DNA from: an uncultured beta proteobacterium
GTDB taxonomy: Bacteria > Pseudomonadota > Gammaproteobacteria > Burkholderiales > Rhodocyclaceae
Direction of reading: 5' to 3'
Length of the DNA stretch: 36,388 nucleotides
NCBI GenBank assembly: GCA_903946745.1
Contig: CAJAWW010000241.1
Coordinates: 1-36,388 of the forward strand
Every line of letters starts with the position of its first letter. Within the stretch, counting starts at the first letter, position 1. The notes beneath the pieces are model-generated. The model made no database searches. It worked only from the letters and a program-made list of their open reading frames with translations, and was not told the DNA's origin. This document shows, one piece after another, positions 5,322 to 14,145 of the stretch. Made by a program: the position numbers and the translations under genes.

Positions 5322-5726
5322 TTATTTCGAGAGCATGAAGTCCACGGCGGCCTTGACGTCTTCGTCAGCGGCTGCGGCGTTGCCGCCCTTGGCCGGCATC
5401 ATGCCTGCCTTGCCGGTGAAGCCGGCAATTGCATGCTTGTAGAGCACTTCCTTGCCTTGTGCAATGCGGGCATCCCATTGATCCTTTTTGCCGGGGATCG
5501 GTGCGCCTGCCGTGCCTGAAGCGTGGCACATGGCGCAGGTGGTTTTGTACAGCGCTTCGCCCTTGGGGTTTGCCGCAGCAACGGCCGCAGGTGCCGCCGC
5601 CGCCGCTGGTGCCGCTGCAGCGGGTGCTGGCGTGCTGGCCGGTGCCGGTGCCGATGCAGGTGCCTTATCTTGACCGCAAGCGGCGAGCACCAGCAACAAG
5701 GCGCTGGCTGTGATGAGTTTGTTCAT
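5322..5726 (-). CDS. Lipoprotein c-type cytochrome (c5-like) closing the nos cluster
   Basis: The protein has 134 residues. The signal peptide MNKLITASALLLVLAAC ends in a lipobox (L-A-A-C17), so it is predicted to be lipid-anchored. Residues about 22-52 form an Ala/Pro linker. A single-haem domain follows, with CAMCH at 64-68, a candidate axial Met in AGMMPAKGG, and a short C-terminal helix (DFMLSK). This resembles small class I cytochromes of the c5 family. The start at 5726 is chosen because AGGAGAAG precedes it at a good distance and the lipoprotein signal begins there; the frame stays open to 5783. Its position at the end of the nos cluster suggests it supplies electrons to NosZ, which is inference. 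Confidence 0.85.
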   Translation of the reverse strand: MNKLITASALLLVLAACGQDKAPASAPAPASTPAPAAAAPAAAAAPAAVAAANPKGEALYKTTCAMCHASGTAGAPIPGKKDQWDARIAQGKEVLYKHAIAGFTGKAGMMPAKGGNAAAADEDVKAAVDFMLSK

Positions 5727-5779
5727 GGATACTTCTCCTGAAAAATAAAATGATGAGTGAGCAGTGTTGCCCGATACGT

Positions 5780-6280
5780 TCAATGACTGCTACCGCCATG
5801 CAGCGCGCCGCCGTCCATCACCACCATGTCGGGTTTGATGCTGGCGAATTGTAAAATTGTTCCGCCCTGTTGGGCGACAAATGTCTTGGCCGCAGCTTCG
5901 TCTGCAAACGATACAAAAGTTGCGCCCATCGCACCACGTTTGCGGCTGTCTTTGACGAACCACGCGGTGCGCGCATCGATCCAGTTGCCACGCGGTGCAT
6001 TCCAGTCGGCCTTGCCCATATCATTCACAAAGGCGGCAAGCACTTTGCGTTTTTGTTCCGGTTGCAGCAGCATGGAAAGCACTTCAACGGTGTCACAGAA
6101 AAAATCAGTTTTACCGTCAGCGTACTGAATTTGCCCTTTGGGGCCTGGGTAGTCCGCCAGCGACATGCCGTCGAGCGTGCAGACGGTGGTTTTGGTGAAT
6201 TCCTGTGCGACCGCAGGCGCTGGCTTCTGTTCGCAAGCGCTTAGCAAAAACAGTGCTCCGAGCATGATTGTCCACTTCAT
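5780..6280 (-). CDS. nosL: NosL, copper-binding lipoprotein for nitrous oxide reductase maturation
   Basis: The protein has 166 residues. The signal peptide ends in L-S-A-C16, a lipobox. The NosL copper site CTLDGM (C34, D37, M39) follows, then the conserved FVNDMGKADW and the TWFVKDS region. NosL is an outer/periplasmic Cu(I) chaperone that works with the NosDFY transporter to build the CuZ centre of NosZ. The gene lies 54 bp after nosY on the same strand and 53 bp before the cytochrome gene. The C-terminal tail DGGALHGGSSH is His/Gly-rich and might add metal ligands, but this is speculative. Confidence 0.92.
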   Translation of the reverse strand: MKWTIMLGALFLLSACEQKPAPAVAQEFTKTTVCTLDGMSLADYPGPKGQIQYADGKTDFFCDTVEVLSMLLQPEQKRKVLAAFVNDMGKADWNAPRGNWIDARTAWFVKDSRKRGAMGATFVSFADEAAAKTFVAQQGGTILQFASIKPDMVVMDGGALHGGSSH

Positions 6281-6334
6281 GGGGCTTCCTTTTGATGGGT
6301 TGTGCAGGGGTTGATCGCGTATATTTTGCCAGCT

Positions 6335-7183
6335 TCATGCCTTGTTGAAGCGCCAAGCGGCCACACCCAGCGGTACGACTATCCACGCGGTCATGACGCC
6401 GCCGAGCAAGGCCGGGTTGGCCAGCGAATCCGGGAATACCGTGGCCAGCCCGTAGATGGTTTTGACCTCTTCAAGACTGAAAATGTTCAGCAGTCGATAG
6501 ACATCGGCCGGGTTTAGTAACAGCAGCACAGGGAACAGCGCTGCACCGGTTTCTCCGCCGGTTTCGCCACCGGTTGCGACCAGAGCGCCCAGCAGCAGCA
6601 GGTCATAGATCAGTACCAGAAAAAACCATGCGGCAATGGCCGTGCCGCTGGCGCGGGTGCGGTCTTTTGCCAGCACGGAAATCAGCACCGCGATGCTGAG
6701 AAATGCCAGCCCTAGCAGCAGCGTGCTGAAGATGAAGCCGCCATAGTGAAAGAGTGCGTTCCAACCGCCTTGCCAGGCGATCATGCCGCCCACCAGACCG
6801 AATCCGCCCAGTGTGGGCAGTGCCAGTGCGGCAGCTAGCCCCAAAAACTTGCCTAGCAGCAGTTCGCTGCGGGTGATCGGCATCGACAACAGCAGATCAA
6901 GCGAGCCGCGTTCGCGTTCGCCGACGATGGCATCAAAGCCCAGCATGAGCGCAATCAGGGGGATCAGGTAAATCACCAGACTGACGAGGCTGGCGATGGT
7001 GTAGGCCAGCCCGCGAAAGCCGATGGCGCCTTGTTGTGCAGCGCCAAAATAGGCGATCGCCATGGCGAAAATGGCAAACACGATGGCCACGGCCAGCACC
7101 CAGCGGCTGCGCACGCGATCGCGGAACTCTTTCGCGGCCATGGTGCGGATGGGTGCGAATTCGATGTTTGGCAAGAGGCTCAT
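6335..7183 (-). CDS. nosY: NosY, membrane permease of the NosDFY copper-site maturation transporter
   Basis: The protein has 282 residues and is an ABC-2 type permease with six predicted membrane spans, the first at about 28-48 and the last near 258-276. The conserved GERERGSLDLLLSMPITR stretch after the second span is typical of NosY and relatives. NosY pairs with the ATPase NosF and the periplasmic NosD. Its ATG overlaps the nosF stop codon (ATGA), which implies translational coupling and fixes the start. An internal Met at residue 15 is a possible alternative start. Confidence 0.92.
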   Translation of the reverse strand: MSLLPNIEFAPIRTMAAKEFRDRVRSRWVLAVAIVFAIFAMAIAYFGAAQQGAIGFRGLAYTIASLVSLVIYLIPLIALMLGFDAIVGERERGSLDLLLSMPITRSELLLGKFLGLAAALALPTLGGFGLVGGMIAWQGGWNALFHYGGFIFSTLLLGLAFLSIAVLISVLAKDRTRASGTAIAAWFFLVLIYDLLLLGALVATGGETGGETGAALFPVLLLLNPADVYRLLNIFSLEEVKTIYGLATVFPDSLANPALLGGVMTAWIVVPLGVAAWRFNKA

Positions 7184-8094
7184 GCGGTGTAACCCAAGTA
7201 GACATCTTCCAGCGAGGGCTCGCGCACATGCACGTCGCGCACGGTTTCACGTAGTGCCGCGACGGCTGCCAGCACGCTCATTTTTGATTTGCGGGCGCAG
7301 GAAAATTTGAGTTCGGTGTCATCGCTTTGCAATGCCTCGGCACCCGCTGCCACGAGATCGCGCTGGATATCTGCCAGCGGCGCACCCTCGGCCAGCAGCA
7401 GCACCATGCTCAGGGGTAAGTCCATTTTTTCGCGCAATTCATGAACCGAGCCGGTCGCTTGCAGACGGCCAGAGCGCAGGATTGCCAGCCGGCTGACCCG
7501 CTCCTGAATTTCCGAAAGGATGTGCGAGCTCAAGATGATGGTGACACCTTCCGCACGCAGGTTCTGGACGGCCTGATAAAACTCGTGGATGGCTTCCGGG
7601 TCGAGCCCGGTGGTGGGTTCGTCGAGAAACAGCAGTGCCGGTTTGCCCAGCAAAGCCTGTGCAAAGCCCAAGCGTTGCCGCATGCCTTTGGAGTATTGGC
7701 CGACCGGACGTCCGGCAGCAGCGGCCAGACCTACACGTTCGAGCAAGCCGCTACATTCGGTTTCATCCGCGCCCTTCATCCGAGCGAAGAAGCGCAGCGT
7801 TTCGATGCCAGTCAGGTTGTCGTAAAACACCACGTTTTCAGGCAGGTAGCCGACCTTGCGGCGAACGTCGCGAAAACCGTCGCCATGCACTGATTGGCCG
7901 AGTACGCGAATTTCACCGGCGGAGGGGGCAATCAGGCCGAGCATCATGCGGAACAGGGTGCTTTTGCCGGCACCGTTGTGTCCGATCAGGCCGAACAGTT
8001 CACCGGCGTCGACAGCCAGGTCGACGCCATCCACGGCACGCAGTGCGGCGAAATCTTTGGTGACGGCACACACTTCAATGGCGGATGCGTTCAA
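7180..8094 (-). CDS. nosF: NosF, ATPase of the NosDFY transporter
   Basis: The protein has 304 residues and is an ABC ATPase: Walker A GHNGAGKST (38-46), signature YSKGMRQRLG near 138-147, Walker B LLFLDEPTTGLDP shortly after, and a C-terminal extension of about 90 residues as in NosF. It powers the NosDFY complex, which is needed to assemble the copper-sulfide CuZ site of nitrous oxide reductase; the complex works at the inner membrane. The gene overlaps the end of nosD by 20 bp and the start of nosY by 4 bp, so nosDFY is tightly coupled. Confidence 0.93.
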   Translation of the reverse strand: MNASAIEVCAVTKDFAALRAVDGVDLAVDAGELFGLIGHNGAGKSTLFRMMLGLIAPSAGEIRVLGQSVHGDGFRDVRRKVGYLPENVVFYDNLTGIETLRFFARMKGADETECSGLLERVGLAAAAGRPVGQYSKGMRQRLGFAQALLGKPALLFLDEPTTGLDPEAIHEFYQAVQNLRAEGVTIILSSHILSEIQERVSRLAILRSGRLQATGSVHELREKMDLPLSMVLLLAEGAPLADIQRDLVAAGAEALQSDDTELKFSCARKSKMSVLAAVAALRETVRDVHVREPSLEDVYLGYTA

Positions 8095-9328
8095 TCCATT
8101 GTCTCCAGTCCGGGTTGGTAGGTTTCATGTGCGGTTTGTTATCGACCACGCTGGTTGCGCGCAGTAATGGGAATTGCCGGGCGATCATGCGCAGGGTTTG
8201 AATGGCCGGGCTGCCCATCAGCAAGCGCACCACAGGCTGGCGCCAGATCAGTCGGTCGACCAGATCGTTGGCCTCGTAGGGTACATCGCCGATGCCATCG
8301 CCGTCACGATCCCAACCCAGATAATTACCCCAGTAGTTGCCCGACTTGACGCCCCAGTATTCGTCACGCGAGGCGACATAGCGAATTTGTTCCTGATTCT
8401 GAATGAAATGATTGCCTTCAACCTCGTTGCGCGTCGAGCCTGCCCAGAGATGCACGCCGACGGCATTGCCGACCACCAGATTGTTGCGCAGGGTATTGTA
8501 TTCTGCGTCATAGATGAAGAATCCCCGCGCATTGCCGGCCACGACGTTGTTTTCGATCACCGAATCCTGAATGGTGCGCAGCATGATGCCATGATCGGAG
8601 TTGCCCCAGGCGCGGTTGTTGCGCACGATCTGGTCGCGCACTTCCATCAGTGCCAGCCCGCCACGATTCAGATAGGTCTCGTTGTTCTCCCAGACATTAT
8701 TGAATGACGTCATGTAATGGGTGCCGTAGCGCGAGTGGTGCATGCGGTTGCCACGGAAGATTGCATGATGGGTGACGTCGACATAGAGTGCATCGCGCGC
8801 GAAACTGATGTTGTTGCCTTCGATCAGCGCACCCTGCGTGTTGTAAAGCTGGATGCCGTTGCCGCGCGCAACGGAGGCAAGATCGCGCTTGCCGGTAATC
8901 AGATTGCCGATGATGCGCACGTCTTTCACGCCCTCGATCCACAGCCCGAACAGCGAATAGACAACGTCGCAGCGACGAACGATGGCGCGATCTGAGCCTT
9001 TTGTGATGTAGATGCCGGCGTTCTGCTCGCCCAAGTCGTCGCCGCTGTCGGTGACGATCAGGTCTTCGATGATGACATCGGGTGATTTTACCCGGATGAC
9101 ATCACCCTTCAAGCCTCCGCTGATCGTTGGCCGGTCGATGCCACGCAGTGTGAGCGGGCGGGGTACGACAAGATTTTCTGCGTAACGCCCGCGCAGAATT
9201 TTCACCACATCGCCCGACGCGGCTGCGTCGATGGTGCGCTGGATAGATTCGCCGGGGCGCACCGTCCACTCTGCCGCCATGACCGACGTGCATTGCAGGC
9301 ACAGCAAAAAAATGCACAGGCCGCGCAT
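8075..9328 (-). CDS. nosD: NosD, periplasmic beta-helix protein for NosZ copper insertion
   Basis: The protein has about 417 residues. A signal peptide (MRGLCIFLLCLQCTSVMA/A) exports it. The body is a right-handed parallel beta-helix of the NosD/CASH type, visible as repeated short strands with Asn/Gly/Ile turns such as GNGIQLYNTQGALIEGNNIS. NosD binds NosFY on the periplasmic side and passes copper from NosL to apo-NosZ. The start at 9328 gives the cleanest signal peptide and lies 4 bp after the stop of the preceding gene; a start at 9358, inside that gene, would add ten residues. Confidence 0.9.
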   Translation of the reverse strand: MRGLCIFLLCLQCTSVMAAEWTVRPGESIQRTIDAAASGDVVKILRGRYAENLVVPRPLTLRGIDRPTISGGLKGDVIRVKSPDVIIEDLIVTDSGDDLGEQNAGIYITKGSDRAIVRRCDVVYSLFGLWIEGVKDVRIIGNLITGKRDLASVARGNGIQLYNTQGALIEGNNISFARDALYVDVTHHAIFRGNRMHHSRYGTHYMTSFNNVWENNETYLNRGGLALMEVRDQIVRNNRAWGNSDHGIMLRTIQDSVIENNVVAGNARGFFIYDAEYNTLRNNLVVGNAVGVHLWAGSTRNEVEGNHFIQNQEQIRYVASRDEYWGVKSGNYWGNYLGWDRDGDGIGDVPYEANDLVDRLIWRQPVVRLLMGSPAIQTLRMIARQFPLLRATSVVDNKPHMKPTNPDWRQWIERIRH

Positions 9329-9332
9329 GGCT

Positions 9333-9761
9333 TTAGTCGGCCAGCAGCCCCAGCGCATTGAGCATCAGGAATAGCCCGCTGCCCAGCAGCAGGTTTTTGA
9401 ACAGCACATAGCTGATGAGATCCATCCAGTTGGCGACCCGCCAGGTTGAGCCCCACCACGGGCCTTCTTTCACATAGGGCTTGCTGTGATGCCGGATCAG
9501 CACTTCCAGCAGGCTCCAGCCAAACCACCAGGCGATGACGCTGTGGCGTGACAGGTGCCCCAGTGCAGCCGCGCCCCACGCCACCGAGACCAGCACGGCC
9601 AGCACGATGCTGGCCATGGCCAGCGCGCGTTGACGCCGCAGAATCGAGGAAGTCCATGGCCACAGGTGATCCCAGGCTTCATGCGCCAGGCGCAGCCAGA
9701 TGTTGGCCGTGCCTTGCTGATAGGCCGGAAATTGAACACGATCGTTCGTGGCAGTTTTCAT
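9333..9761 (-). CDS. Small Trp-rich membrane protein between nosR and nosD, function unknown
   Basis: The protein has 142 residues and I do not recognise the family. It has about three membrane spans (roughly 46-68, 73-90 and 113-139) and a soluble N-terminus of about 45 residues without a cleavable signal. It contains 12 Trp (including WPW, AWWFGW and PWW) and several His near the membrane borders (H27, H32, H69, H73, H91, H92). The start at 9761 (MKTATNDRVQ) leaves 10 bp after the nosR stop; an upstream extension of the frame inside nosR looks like non-coding arginine-rich shadow. The stop is 4 bp before nosD. Its position inside a tight nos operon suggests a role in N2O reductase electron supply or assembly, but nothing in the sequence proves this. 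Confidence 0.75.
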   Translation of the reverse strand: MKTATNDRVQFPAYQQGTANIWLRLAHEAWDHLWPWTSSILRRQRALAMASIVLAVLVSVAWGAAALGHLSRHSVIAWWFGWSLLEVLIRHHSKPYVKEGPWWGSTWRVANWMDLISYVLFKNLLLGSGLFLMLNALGLLAD

Positions 9762-9771
9762 GAGGACACGC

Positions 9772-11913
9772 TCACTGAACAGGTTTGATGGGAATGTAAT
9801 AACCGTCGGCACCGATGGGCGTGAGCGGCAGCCCGGCCTTGGTGCGTTGCTTGCGCTCACTCGACAGCGGCGGGCAGGCATGTTCTTCGTAATACATTAC
9901 CATGCAATCAAGGCACAACATGCACTCGCGCTGGTCGATGGCACCGCTGTTGTCGATGGCCAGCGAGCCGCAACCGACCGCGCAGGCCTTGCATGGCCCG
10001 CATTCTTCCTTGCGCTTGAGACCAAACCAGCGGAAGGTGGTCGGCATCGCCAGCGCAGCGCCGAGCGGGCAGAGATATTTGCAGAAGGGACGCTCCGTAA
10101 AGAGTGAAAGCCCCAGCAAACCGCCGGCAAACAGCGTGTAAGGCCAGGCACGGTTGAACAGGCCGACCAGAAAGGTGGTTTTGAACGGCTCGATTTCGGC
10201 CAATTTTTCGGCCAGCGTCATGGAGAAAAATGACACCACGATCAGCCCGAAAAATACGCCGTATTTCACCCATTTCAAGCGATCATGCCAGTGTTGCGGC
10301 AATTGCCCTTGCCAACGCTTGAGCCCGATTGCTCCGGCGATTTTGTAGAGCAGTTCAGAGAGCGAACCGAAGGGGCAGACCCAGCCGCAGAAGAGCCCGC
10401 GCCCCCACAAAAATACGGTGATGATGATGAACCACCAGAACACGAAAATCAGCGGATCGGACAGGAACAGTTCCCACTTCCACTGGAATAGCAGCGAGTG
10501 GAACCACGTCAGCACTTGCGTGATCGACGGCTGCGCCATGGCGGTGAAGCCGACAAAGCCGATGCTGACGATCCAGGCGATGTATTTCGGAATCGACACC
10601 CAGCGTTTGTCGTTGCGCCTGGAGCGACGTACCAGCGCGTCGCGCTTGGCGTACACCACGGCGACGGCAACGAGGAACGCGGTAAATAGGGCAATTTCGA
10701 CGGCGCGTTGCTTCCACACCTTCAACCAGGTGGGATCGGCCTCTTCAACCACAGGGCGGCCGCCGTCGAGATGGCGTGCCGGCGTCCAGTAGGTTTTGTC
10801 GAAACTGGCGAAACTGCGTGCGCCGGTATCACGATCCATGCGATTGCCGAGGAATACCAGATTCCATGGATAGGCTGATGAAAATGCCGGGTTGCGGATG
10901 ATGAAGATGACTGACTCGTTGTAGGCCGGCGCGCCGGCGGCTTCAATGCCGTAGAGGTTGATGTAATCGAGATCGCGGAAGGTGGTGGTTTCGCCATCCT
11001 GCACCACTTGCACGCGGTCGAAGATGCCGCCACGCACGAAGCCGGAACCCTTGAAGGATTCGCGGCCGGAGCCAATGACGAAAATCGGATGGTCACCCGG
11101 TTGCATGCGCGCCATCAGGTCGGCATAGCCGCTGTCGCCAAGTATGCTGCGACCGATGGCCGGGGCTTCCAGTGGGCCGAACCAGAGATCGATAAAGGCT
11201 TCGCCACCACGGGGCAGACCCACATCTTTCGGATCAACCCGCAGACGTTGCACCGCGCCTTCCTTGACGAGGCCAGCCCAGTCAAACTTGCCTGCCGGAT
11301 CGAGATAGCGCGCCTGCGCACGCACCTTGGGTTTGATGATGCCAACTTGCTGTGCCACAGCGCGCCCGGAACGCAGCATGACCTGATTTTGCGCAATCAC
11401 GGTGACGGTGGCACCCGTAATGGCATCGAGACCTAGTACGCCCTGATCTTTGTGCGAATGGCCGATCTCGATGTAGTCACCGACGAACTTGCCGAGATAC
11501 TGGTTATTGAAATTGGTCAGTGCATCTTCCGGAATGCCTAGCAGCAAGATGGGTTCGGAGTGTTTGAGAATGCGTACCCCGGTAAATTTGCCCTGCAAAT
11601 CCATGCCGATCAGGGTGATGACCGGTTTGCCGGAATAGGCGGGAATGTCGACAATGTCGGTCGACAAAAAGACATAGCCGAGCGGAATTTTTTTACCCGC
11701 TTCGGTGCGGTAGGCCTCAACGTAGGGCGGGCGTCCCTTGCGTTCGGAAAAGCTGTCGGCACCTGGCATCACTTCGCGGCATGGCGCATAGGCGCACATA
11801 TCTGGTGATGAGGTGAGTTCTGGCGGGAGTTGCGCTTCGTAGGACTGTGCGCAGACGACGCCCGTCTGGAACAGCAGCACGGCGATACACCACTGCAACA
11901 ACCGAATCAACAT
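9772..11913 (-). CDS. nosR: NosR, membrane flavo-iron-sulfur protein of N2O respiration
   Basis: The protein has about 713 residues. Order: signal/first span (LIRLLQWCIAVLLFQTGVVCA), a periplasmic FMN-binding domain with the covalent flavin motif T-G-A-T (AITGATV, Thr at about 169), a long periplasmic part, several membrane spans from about residue 405, the two CxxxCP motifs CGWVCP and CKYLCP, and a C-terminal ferredoxin domain with CGPCKACAVGC and CMLCLDC for [4Fe-4S] clusters. NosR sends electrons from quinol to NosZ and is needed for nos expression and NosZ activity. The ATG at 11913 has GGGGA 6 nt upstream and starts the signal directly; 11934 is an alternative adding seven residues. In most denitrifiers nosR precedes nosZ; here it follows it, behind a terminator. 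Confidence 0.93.
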   Translation of the reverse strand: MLIRLLQWCIAVLLFQTGVVCAQSYEAQLPPELTSSPDMCAYAPCREVMPGADSFSERKGRPPYVEAYRTEAGKKIPLGYVFLSTDIVDIPAYSGKPVITLIGMDLQGKFTGVRILKHSEPILLLGIPEDALTNFNNQYLGKFVGDYIEIGHSHKDQGVLGLDAITGATVTVIAQNQVMLRSGRAVAQQVGIIKPKVRAQARYLDPAGKFDWAGLVKEGAVQRLRVDPKDVGLPRGGEAFIDLWFGPLEAPAIGRSILGDSGYADLMARMQPGDHPIFVIGSGRESFKGSGFVRGGIFDRVQVVQDGETTTFRDLDYINLYGIEAAGAPAYNESVIFIIRNPAFSSAYPWNLVFLGNRMDRDTGARSFASFDKTYWTPARHLDGGRPVVEEADPTWLKVWKQRAVEIALFTAFLVAVAVVYAKRDALVRRSRRNDKRWVSIPKYIAWIVSIGFVGFTAMAQPSITQVLTWFHSLLFQWKWELFLSDPLIFVFWWFIIITVFLWGRGLFCGWVCPFGSLSELLYKIAGAIGLKRWQGQLPQHWHDRLKWVKYGVFFGLIVVSFFSMTLAEKLAEIEPFKTTFLVGLFNRAWPYTLFAGGLLGLSLFTERPFCKYLCPLGAALAMPTTFRWFGLKRKEECGPCKACAVGCGSLAIDNSGAIDQRECMLCLDCMVMYYEEHACPPLSSERKQRTKAGLPLTPIGADGYYIPIKPVQ

Positions 11914-11962
11914 TGCCAATCCCCGACAAAACATGCTTTTTCGCTCACGGCGGCCAAGCGCA

Positions 11963-11990
11963 CAAAAAAAACGGAGGGCAAGCCCTCCGT
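11963..11990 (-). terminator. Rho-independent terminator or attenuator between nosZ and nosR
   Basis: The arms ACGGAGGGC (11971-11979) and GCCCTCCGT (11982-11990) form a 9-bp GC-rich stem, followed on the minus strand by eight consecutive U. It lies 80 bp after the nosZ stop, and the nosR start is only 29-50 bp further on. It should stop much of the nosZ transcript. Confidence 0.88.
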
Positions 11991-12014
11991 AATGCTCGTC
12001 CTAAAAATCGTTGT

Positions 12015-12055
12015 ATCAGCGCATCGCTGGTCGATTGATCTGGCGATGCGCTGAT
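12015..12055. repeat. 13-bp perfect inverted repeat just after nosZ
   Basis: The arms ATCAGCGCATCGC (12015-12027) and its exact reverse complement (12043-12055) are separated by 15 nt. It begins 15 bp past the nosZ stop and is followed on the minus strand by a short ATTTTTAG. It may protect the nosZ mRNA 3' end or act as a first, weaker terminator before the one at 11963-11990. Confidence 0.75.
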
Positions 12056-12069
12056 GATTCTGCAGTAGC

Positions 12070-14022
12070 TTAGCCTTCGACGATCATGCGCGAGCGCATT
12101 TCGAGGTGTAAGGCATGGCAGAAGTGGGTGCAATAACACCAGAACACGCCAGCCTTGTCAGCCTTGAATGTCACCGACGCAGTTTCCTGCGGGTTCACGA
12201 TGAAGTTGACATCATGGTTCGGGATCGCAAAGCCGTGACCCAAGTCTTCGATTTTGTCGAGATTGGTCAGGATGATGGTGACTTCGTCACCCTTCTTTAC
12301 CTTGAAATCACGCAGACCGAAGGCCGGTGCCAGCGAGCCGATGAACACGGTAACTTTGTTGCCCTTGCGTTCGACACGCGAATCCTTGATGTCCTTGATC
12401 GCCAAGGGGTGCTCTTCAAGTTTATTGACCTGCGAAGTCTTGATCTTGTTGCGCTTGACGATGATGAAATCGTGCGGCTCCGGCCAACACGGGTGGTCGG
12501 ACAACAACTTCATCTTTTCACCGGAAATGTCGATCAACTGCTCGTTTTCCGGGTGTAGCGGGCCGACTGGCAGGAAGCGATCCTTGGAGAATTTGCAACC
12601 CACATTGAGATATTTGCCGTCGGCCTCTTTGGTTTCGGACATCGAAGCATTCAGGTGCCCCGGCTGGTATTGCACATCCAAGCGATCAACGATGTACTTG
12701 GCATTCTTGTCGCCCTTGAAGAAGGCGATGGCCTTGTCTACGTTCCACTTCACCACCTGGCTGTCGAGGAACAGCGTGGTGAAGGCGTTGCCGCGACCGT
12801 CGAAGGCGGTGTGCAGCGGGCCAAGGCCCAGTTCCACTTCGGCAGCGATAGTTTTCTTGAGATCATCGACGCCACCGTCAAACCATTTCAGCACTTCGGC
12901 CAGATCAATCACCGTTGCCGTGGGCGACAGCTTACCGGCGCAGATGAAGTATTTGCCATCCGGGCTCGCATTGACGCCGTGGGGGTTCTTCGGTACTGGC
13001 ACATAGCCGGTGAGTGCGGTTTTGGCATCTTTGTTGGCAGCCTTGGTGCCATCGACCACGGGCACTTTGGAGTCGCCGTAGGTCTTGAACTTGCCATCCT
13101 TAACAGCCTGTTCGATGCGCGCCACATGGAAGAACACGCAGGCGTCACGTTCGGCAGACATCATGTCTTCGTACTTGGCACCCATCTCGGTGTTGTACTG
13201 GTTGGTGGCAGCCAGTTTGCCGTCGTAAGACGTGGCGGTCAGGTCGCAGTTGCCATCGATCAGCACTTGCCAGCGCACGGCCATGGTTTCGGCATCGACG
13301 CAGGTGAACAGTGAGTGATACTTGGTCGGATCAGCGGCATCCTTGCCGGTGTTGGGCAGCGGAATCGAGAACTCGGAGCCGCAGAACACGCGCGTGGTGT
13401 GGTTGATCTTGGGATCAACCGGGTCACGCTTGTCCGGAAACACGCCATGGAAGCCCTGAATGTTCGGCAACTGTGTGATCTTGTCGCACACCATGTAGTC
13501 AAGACGGATACGCGCCAGACGCGAATTGATCTTGTCATTCACCCAGGCGTATTTGCCATTGTAGGTGCCGTCGGTGTATGAGGCATGCACATGGTGCGTG
13601 TCGCCGACGGTGTACTTCATGGAGCCATCGGGCTTGGTGCCGATGATGGCCTTGGATTCGTTGGTTGAACCCCAACCAGTCAAGGCGCAACGGTTGAACA
13701 CCGGAATGCGCTTGATTTCACGGCCGGAAGGCAGGCCGAGCACGCGCACTTCGCCGGAGTGACCACCCGACCATAGACCATAGTATTCATCGAGCTGACC
13801 GGGTTTGAGGTGCCCACCATCCCCAGCAGCGTGCGCTGCGGCAGCGGCGGGGGCAGCCGGAGCCGCACCAGCGGCCGGTGCTGCGGCTTGCGGTTCCTGC
13901 TTGCAGCCAACCAGTGTGGCCGCACCCAGTGCAACGCCCGCTGCGGCTGTGGAATTCAGAAAACGGCGGCGGGGCAGATCTGCGCCGGCATCCGGTTGTT
14001 TCTTGTCGTTAGTTGTATCCAT
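12070..14022 (-). CDS. nosZ: NosZ, nitrous oxide reductase (Tat-type, predicted lipoprotein)
   Basis: The protein has 650 residues and catalyses the reduction of N2O to N2 in the periplasm. The N-terminus has a Tat motif PRRRFLN (twin Arg at 18-19) and a hydrophobic core ending L-V-G-C40, a lipobox-like site, followed by an Ala/Pro linker of about 25 residues and a His/Gly patch before the beta-propeller. The CuZ ligands include DTHHVH and EPHDF. The C-terminal cupredoxin domain carries the CuA motif CTHFCHALHLEM. The Tat signal places it in clade I. The usual Trp in the CuA loop (CxWFC) is His here; that ligand binds through its backbone carbonyl, so function can be kept. The ATG has GGAGAT 5 bp upstream. 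It is the first gene of the cluster, with an FNR-type box 110 bp upstream. Confidence 0.96.
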   Translation of the reverse strand: MDTTNDKKQPDAGADLPRRRFLNSTAAAGVALGAATLVGCKQEPQAAAPAAGAAPAAPAAAAAHAAGDGGHLKPGQLDEYYGLWSGGHSGEVRVLGLPSGREIKRIPVFNRCALTGWGSTNESKAIIGTKPDGSMKYTVGDTHHVHASYTDGTYNGKYAWVNDKINSRLARIRLDYMVCDKITQLPNIQGFHGVFPDKRDPVDPKINHTTRVFCGSEFSIPLPNTGKDAADPTKYHSLFTCVDAETMAVRWQVLIDGNCDLTATSYDGKLAATNQYNTEMGAKYEDMMSAERDACVFFHVARIEQAVKDGKFKTYGDSKVPVVDGTKAANKDAKTALTGYVPVPKNPHGVNASPDGKYFICAGKLSPTATVIDLAEVLKWFDGGVDDLKKTIAAEVELGLGPLHTAFDGRGNAFTTLFLDSQVVKWNVDKAIAFFKGDKNAKYIVDRLDVQYQPGHLNASMSETKEADGKYLNVGCKFSKDRFLPVGPLHPENEQLIDISGEKMKLLSDHPCWPEPHDFIIVKRNKIKTSQVNKLEEHPLAIKDIKDSRVERKGNKVTVFIGSLAPAFGLRDFKVKKGDEVTIILTNLDKIEDLGHGFAIPNHDVNFIVNPQETASVTFKADKAGVFWCYCTHFCHALHLEMRSRMIVEG

Positions 14023-14131: not shown

Positions 14132-14145
14132 TTGATATTTATCAA
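14132..14145. promoter_or_regulatory. FNR/DNR-type box, TTGAT-N4-ATCAA
   Basis: The sequence TTGATATTTATCAA is a perfect 5-4-5 palindrome of the FNR/DNR/NNR family (oxygen or NO response). It lies in the 205-bp divergent gap, 110 bp upstream of nosZ and 83 bp upstream of the FHA gene. For nosZ no clear -10 lies at the class II activation distance; TATAGT is present on the minus strand at 14152-14157, on the far side of the box. On the plus strand TATACC (14153-14158) and TATAGC (14163-14168) follow the box. Which promoter it controls is therefore open. The nosZ leader also holds a small AAGCCT/AGGCTT hairpin (14059-14084). Confidence 0.75.

Follow-up and report, generated by a model that had tools for sequence, protein, structure and literature searches.

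Nitrous oxide reductase (NosZ) removes the greenhouse gas nitrous oxide (N2O) and is usually described as a free-floating enzyme in bacteria of the kind considered here. The window analysed, a stretch of 36,388 nucleotides from an uncultured beta proteobacterium of the Rhodocyclaceae (GenBank contig CAJAWW010000241.1), is contig C241 of a 2.83-Mb genome in 332 contigs. It includes a nos cluster in which NosZ, a small c-type cytochrome and NosL each carry the signal of a lipoprotein. The cluster lies on the minus strand in the order nosZ - nosR - gene for a 142-residue membrane protein - nosD - nosF - nosY - nosL - cytochrome c. The features that bear on membrane anchoring are the following:

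12070-14022, minus strand: nosZ, twin-arginine translocation (Tat)-dependent clade I nitrous oxide reductase, 650 amino acids (aa) (TIGR04244, 1005 bits; cut-off 625)
13903-13914, minus strand: NosZ lipobox L37-V38-G39-C40, closing the Tat signal (R18 R19 R20 F21) (sequence, and conservation in 104 of 107 clade members)
13813-13902, minus strand: NosZ Ala/Pro arm, about residues 41-70 (sequence, and arm lengths in 106 lipobox NosZ)
5780-6280, minus strand: nosL, copper-binding lipoprotein; lipobox LSA-C16 with its Cys codon at 6233-6235 (PF05573, 157 bits, above cut-off; sequence)
5322-5726, minus strand: c-type cytochrome of 134 aa with one haem, a predicted lipoprotein; lipobox LAA-C17 with its Cys codon at 5676-5678 (PF13442, 48.5 bits, above cut-off)
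5571-5675, minus strand: cytochrome Ala/Pro arm, residues 18-52 (sequence; combined Ala and Pro fraction, A+P, 0.83)

Signal, arm and copper sites of NosZ

The N-terminus of NosZ, read from a start at 14022 as ...LPRRRFLNSTAAAGVALGAATLVG-C40-KQEPQAAAPAAGAAPAAPAAAAAHAA..., carries the twin-arginine motif RRRFL at residues 18-22, and its hydrophobic stretch closes with LVG-C40. About 30 Ala/Pro-rich residues follow Cys40, and the folded enzyme begins at about residue 71. Lipobox cysteines also end the signals of the cytochrome (LAAC17, in ...LLLVLAA-C17-GQDKAPASAPAPASTPAPAAAAP...) and of NosL (LSAC16, in LLSA-C16-EQK). The first-pass annotation of this DNA, made from the letters alone, had pointed to these three lipoboxes and to similar Ala/Pro linkers on NosZ and the cytochrome; every residue and coordinate that it gave for NosZ is correct, and its reading of the cytochrome and NosL is right on sequence.

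The likeness of the NosZ and cytochrome arms, also claimed at that stage, is compositional. In a scan of the window's own genome by a crude rule (258 kb including the window, ~9% of the genome), the two most Ala/Pro-rich arms among 13 lipoprotein candidates are those of the cytochrome (A+P 0.83) and NosZ (0.67), and the next stands at 0.30. The arm of NosL is without the trait (A+P 0.27). Ala/Pro arms as a general lipoprotein habit of the organism were not seen in the 258 kb covered by this crude finder. The NosZ-arm and cytochrome regions were searched separately for DNA repeats. The former gave only a weak family of four copies (68-77%), located within the arm and around it, and the latter gave none.

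The enzyme scores above the curated cut-off of its family, TIGR04244. His 143, 144, 192, 348, 404, 456 and 517 are taken here, by alignment, to be the CuZ ligands, and H596, C631, C635, H639 and M642 to be those of CuA; these residues are kept both in NosZ encoded with nosR downstream, as in the window, and in NosZ encoded with nosR upstream. With its full set of CuZ and CuA ligands, NosZ should be an active enzyme.

The two gene-order groups are distinguished by other residues of NosZ. Residues 179, 241, 259, 295, 361 and 629 are Cys, conserved at 0.87-1.00 in the nosR-downstream group, and a different residue is commonest at each of the six positions in the nosR-upstream group; these extra Cys may form lineage-specific disulphides. 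At residue 633, which presumably lies near the electron path, the CuA-loop Trp of the nosR-upstream group (0.98) is replaced by His in 0.93 of the nosR-downstream group, the window included.

Distribution of the lipobox and of the cytochrome

Three sources supplied NosZ sequences: 80 named genome contigs, which rank best among 212 and so lean to close relatives; a family sample of 101 genomes; and 398 genomes sampled evenly across the phylum, which form the fairer sample. A regular expression for the anchor motif matched 96 of 111 loci, and all 96 have RRxF; a locus missed by this expression (L033, TAAC) is covered by a later one used to survey 162 distinct NosZ. The survey excludes NosZ with fewer than 560 aligned columns, fewer than 500 mature residues or an identical mature sequence. 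Certain nosR-upstream sequences are not counted as lipobox proteins, namely L149, L151, L161 and L166 (GVAC or GMAC, with the Cys within the hydrophobic stretch) and L180 (EGGC).

A lipobox Cys is present in 104 of the 107 surveyed NosZ with nosR downstream versus 1 of the 52 with nosR upstream, and in 2 of the 3 with undetermined order. The gene order of the lipobox clade is nosZ-nosR-nosDFYL. The pattern recurs in the phylum sample, where 54 NosZ exceed the cut-off and the lipobox is found in 4/4 nosR-downstream enzymes and 1/50 others (49 nosR-upstream and one undetermined). In the genus of one Hydrogenophilales genome, all 25 NosZ read have the lipobox (29 of 56 genomes matched, with 28 full-length places, 3 of which gave no locus). 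Cupriavidus necator H16 has a lipobox in NosZ (VVAC) and in the adjacent cytochrome (LVAC), the annotated start of which gives an unusually short signal; a gene for an ApbE-type flavin transferase adjoins this cytochrome gene. Thauera, Azoarcus, Acidovorax, Hydrogenophaga and Cupriavidus are all among the 80 loci. A one-off quirk of the window is ruled out by this conservation across the clade, and a lack of Cys40 in relatives, on which the first-pass annotation would have given up its proposal, is not what is found.

In a FastTree tree of NosZ, gene order maps as a single change and the lipobox as four. The most plausible reading of the four is a single main transition, a loss of the lipobox on two occasions within its clade (once in L111 and L114, once in L112) and a gain elsewhere in L184, on a tree that by itself does not separate gain from loss and in which L184 sits on a long branch. 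The L184 lipobox is probably an independent gain. This NosZ (L184:8972-10933) has a Tat signal and a lipobox (LAGC), an Ala-containing arm and nosR upstream, and comes from G206, a genome of 1.8 Mb in the same order, where the neighbouring genes look neisserial. A separate case among the family genomes is L113 (G015), where nosZ lies in two pieces ~1.3 kb apart, is broken or interrupted and is also Cys-less; it is among the sequences left out of the survey of 162.

The arms of the 106 lipobox NosZ measured are 22-36 residues long (median 29), with a median A+P of 0.56. Over the 26 residues before the folded domain, the median A+P of these enzymes is 0.54 (range 0.27-0.85), compared to 0.38 in 51 Cys-less nosR-upstream NosZ and 0.35 in three Cys-less clade members, with overlapping ranges; the comparison of the 106 with the 51 gives a Mann-Whitney p of 2e-15, kinship ignored. 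The three Cys-less clade members are also without the long Ala/Pro arm.

The cytochrome of the window begins at an ATG at 5726, with AGGAG ahead, 53 bases past nosL. Its 35-residue Ala/Pro arm leads from C17 toward a single CAMCH haem motif, and a GMMP motif provides a candidate Met ligand. Both PF13442 and PF00034 match above cut-off and the nearest solved chain is cytochrome c-555 (4j20, E 1e-17), consistent with a small cytochrome of class I, close to c555 and c5. Queries with this protein included two extra codons ahead of its true ATG, and those with the 142-aa frame one extra upstream codon. Among loci with at least 1.2 kb upstream and at least 9 kb downstream of nosZ, a homologue of at least 70 bits accompanies nosZ at 63 of 79 lipobox loci with nosR downstream, at 0 of 1 Cys-less nosR-downstream locus and at 1 of 15 nosR-upstream loci. 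Its position varies: divergent just ahead of nosZ in many Burkholderiales, ~8-10 kb past the start of nosZ in others, and immediately beyond nosL in the window. All 76 readable copies beside a lipobox NosZ have a lipobox themselves (L060 and L074 are cut by a contig end), and the sole nosR-upstream copy (L170) has none. The pairing of a lipobox enzyme with a lipobox cytochrome, first remarked in the window, is thus recurrent in clusters of the betaproteobacterial type. Across the family sample, an ortholog of the cytochrome (at least 100 bits) occurs in 16 of 28 genomes with nosR-downstream NosZ versus 1 of 73 others (Fisher p 3e-10, kinship ignored).

Export, membrane and electron path

Searches of the window's own genome for TatC, signal peptidase II, LolB and ApbE found TatC (PF00902, 238 bits), signal peptidase II (Lsp; PF01252, 145 bits), LolB and one ApbE. 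With TatC, signal peptidase II and LolB encoded there, a route of Tat export, lipidation and cleavage appears to be available. We infer that NosZ is probably a Tat-exported lipoprotein on a flexible arm and that the lipid-anchored cytochrome is its likely donor. Folded NosZ would be exported by Tat, acquire its lipid at Cys40 and be cleaved by signal peptidase II; the copper enzyme would then hang from an envelope membrane by its flexible Ala/Pro arm of ~30 residues. The cytochrome would be exported by the Sec pathway, lipidated at Cys17 and left with its haem domain on an arm of like kind (~35 residues), from which it would be the most likely electron donor to the CuA site of NosZ.

Several points weigh against this proposal. 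The cytochrome ortholog is absent from 9 of 24 family genomes with a lipobox NosZ (one of them, G092, is 52% complete); therefore, the cytochrome cannot be the only donor. Its role as a universal NosZ partner is ruled out by the same count. One genome (G037) pairs a lipobox cytochrome with a Cys-less NosZ, and lipoboxes occur in 5 of the 13 lower-scoring family homologues read (L218-L230), which belong to other cytochrome subfamilies. The arm of the L184 NosZ is not Ala/Pro-enriched in the 26-residue measure (A+P 0.38). No lipidation, localisation or activity data were found for these proteins, NosR itself is proposed as a donor in a passage of PMC7660919, and Gram-negative NosZ is held to be soluble in one of PMC3475470. 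A joint loss of both tethers was also considered and is unsupported, as the NosZ Cys alone is lost in G037.

Which membrane would hold the two proteins may be predicted from the residue after the lipobox Cys. Under the Lol rule of Escherichia coli, Asp at position +2 is an inner-membrane signal and lipoproteins without Asp go to the outer membrane. Of 106 NosZ, 88 have T, N or K at +2 and one has Asp; of 76 cytochromes, 70 have Gly there and one has Asp. Because these residues are almost never Asp, the rule slightly favours the inner leaflet of the outer membrane for NosZ and the cytochrome alike. The earlier placement of both tethers near NosR, an inner-membrane protein, runs against this prediction. 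From the outer membrane, the arms would let NosZ and the cytochrome reach into the periplasm toward NosR and the bc1 complex; extended together, they would span roughly 20 nm (an estimate at 0.35 nm per residue).

Alternatively, and in line with the first-pass annotation, both proteins may be anchored in the outer leaflet of the inner membrane next to NosR, with in-plane electron transfer and no diffusible carrier. NosR and NosZ are encoded in one operon, and the frequent Gly at +2 of the cytochromes (70/76) would also suit this arrangement, since Gly at +2 has been associated with retention at the inner membrane in certain artificial constructs. The arrangement nevertheless seems unlikely given that +2 is not Asp in 105 of 106 NosZ and 75 of 76 cytochromes, that LolB is present and that the ortholog is missing from the nine genomes noted above. 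A parallel in Neisseria also speaks against it, as the lipid-modified azurin Laz is placed at the outer membrane, facing the periplasm, in a passage of PMC6277709.

The tether may instead serve maturation rather than electron transfer, by keeping NosZ near NosL/NosDFY for copper loading and repair or by preventing its loss. The predicted lipoprotein NosL in the same cluster would fit such a role, as would the lipobox NosZ without a cytochrome ortholog in 9 of 24 genomes. Paracoccus NosZ, however, was purified as a soluble enzyme. The NosL of Paracoccus, which is a copper-binding and putatively outer-membrane lipoprotein according to a passage of PMC7660919, is a further point of agreement with a maturation role; yet the combination of a soluble NosZ with a lipoprotein NosL suggests that the latter does not require a tethered NosZ. 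The lipobox on the linked cytochrome points to electron transfer as well, and maturation as the purpose of the tether is an unlikely explanation. A relic or false lipobox, in which signal peptidase I would cut near Cys40 or in the Ala-rich stretch and leave NosZ soluble, could draw on the many AxA-like sites of the Ala-rich arms and on the other conserved Cys in the mature enzyme of the clade but is highly improbable, as a useless Cys would hardly be kept in 104 of 107 NosZ (versus 1 of 52 nosR-upstream), the long Ala/Pro arm is gone along with the Cys in three clade members, and a second lineage (L184) has a lipobox with an Ala-containing arm.

A tethered NosZ is already known as an idea (Bacillus, haloarchaea and Thiobacillus denitrificans). 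The clade I NosZ of Pseudomonas and Paracoccus (nosRZDFYL; PDB 3sbp, 1qni and 1fwx, which we take to be structures from these organisms) resembles that of the window in Tat export, family and all CuZ/CuA ligands but shares ~46-54% identity with it and is encoded with nosR upstream of nosZ, an order in which 51 of 52 NosZ are without a lipobox. The N2O reductase of Bacillus is described in a passage of PMC3475470 as membrane-associated, with a predicted lipoprotein cytochrome (NosC). The nosC-nosZ systems of Bacillota (Bacillus azotoformans, Geobacillus) are thus similar to the window in that a lipoprotein cytochrome c adjoins a membrane-associated NosZ. By contrast, they belong to Gram-positive cells with no outer membrane and, as the same passage has it, have a distinct NosZ family and follow the order nosCZ-ORF-nosDYF (ORF, open reading frame) without NosR. 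The window does not belong with these systems; it has NosR, its cytochrome is at the far end of the cluster, and its NosZ falls in TIGR04244. The haloarchaeal NosZ of Haloferax mediterranei likewise has a predicted Tat signal and lipobox but differs in that the archaeal lipidation machinery is unknown and in that no such cytochrome is described in the passage concerned (PMC8301774).

Among betaproteobacteria, the denitrification enzyme AniA and the redox carrier Laz of Neisseria are both lipoproteins in passages of PMC6277709 and PMC8301774; however, AniA is a NirK rather than a NosZ and is surface-displayed, and Laz is concluded not to be its donor (PMC6277709). N2O reductase is given as membrane-bound in Bacillus azotoformans and Thiobacillus denitrificans in a review passage that terms both Gram-positive (PMC8139620, citing Hole 1996). 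Thiobacillus denitrificans is a betaproteobacterium, and its enzyme is thus similar to that proposed here in being membrane-bound and betaproteobacterial; the passage states no reason for the binding. A full-text literature search, with subscription papers mostly outside its reach, found no statement of a betaproteobacterial clade I NosZ as a lipoprotein and no description, for Gram-negative bacteria, of clade I NosZ tethered throughout a clade alongside a matching lipoprotein cytochrome; absence from print is not claimed.

If NosZ is tethered as proposed, denitrifiers of the genera Thauera, Azoarcus, Acidovorax, Hydrogenophaga and Cupriavidus would respire N2O by a membrane-tethered enzyme, with a bearing on enzyme purification, donor assays and the modelling of electron competition in denitrification. 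The prediction is directly testable in Cupriavidus necator H16, in which both proteins have a lipobox. A wider and more tentative view, possible though rather doubtful, is that a betaproteobacterial branch of clade I has a membrane-bound last step, in which NosZ and a dedicated lipoprotein cytochrome are held by flexible arms to the inner face of the outer membrane and together make up a two-dimensional electron network in contact with NosR/bc1 across the periplasm, and that lipidation of NosZ is the cause of the 'membranous' N2O reductase of Thiobacillus denitrificans.

Other genes and sites of the cluster

The remaining features of the cluster are:

9772-11934, minus strand: nosR, transmembrane Fe-S/flavin protein, 720 aa (NF046105, 615.7 bits, below the cut-off of 1000; PF12801)
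9333-9761, minus strand: split-off C-terminal membrane module of NosR as its own gene, 142 aa (comparison with relatives)
8075-9358, minus strand: nosD (TIGR04247, 442 bits; cut-off 300)
7180-8094, minus strand: nosF, ATP-binding cassette (ABC) ATPase (PF00005)
6335-7183, minus strand: nosY, ABC permease (PF12679)
14132-14145, no strand: perfect FNR/DNR-type palindrome TTGATNNNNATCAA, 5' of nosZ (1 match versus 0.03 expected)

The 142-aa frame could not be named by family or fold, as it has no Pfam or NCBIfam match and its best fold match (E 0.3) is not significant. Comparison with relatives instead identifies it as the C-terminal module of NosR, a module found in 98 of 100 nosR-downstream clusters and in 0 of 27 nosR-upstream clusters. 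Among 101 relatives, 67 have the module fused to NosR, 31 have it split off (the split NosR of one of these, L076, ends oddly early) and 3 have some other arrangement; in Cupriavidus necator H16 the module falls under the NosR annotation. An alignment of 50 sequences of the module has 20 invariant columns, and the model of the 142-aa protein consists of three long helices (predicted local distance difference test score, pLDDT, 86.6). The palindrome lies ~110 bases ahead of nosZ, and its motif is presumably that of FNR/DNR.

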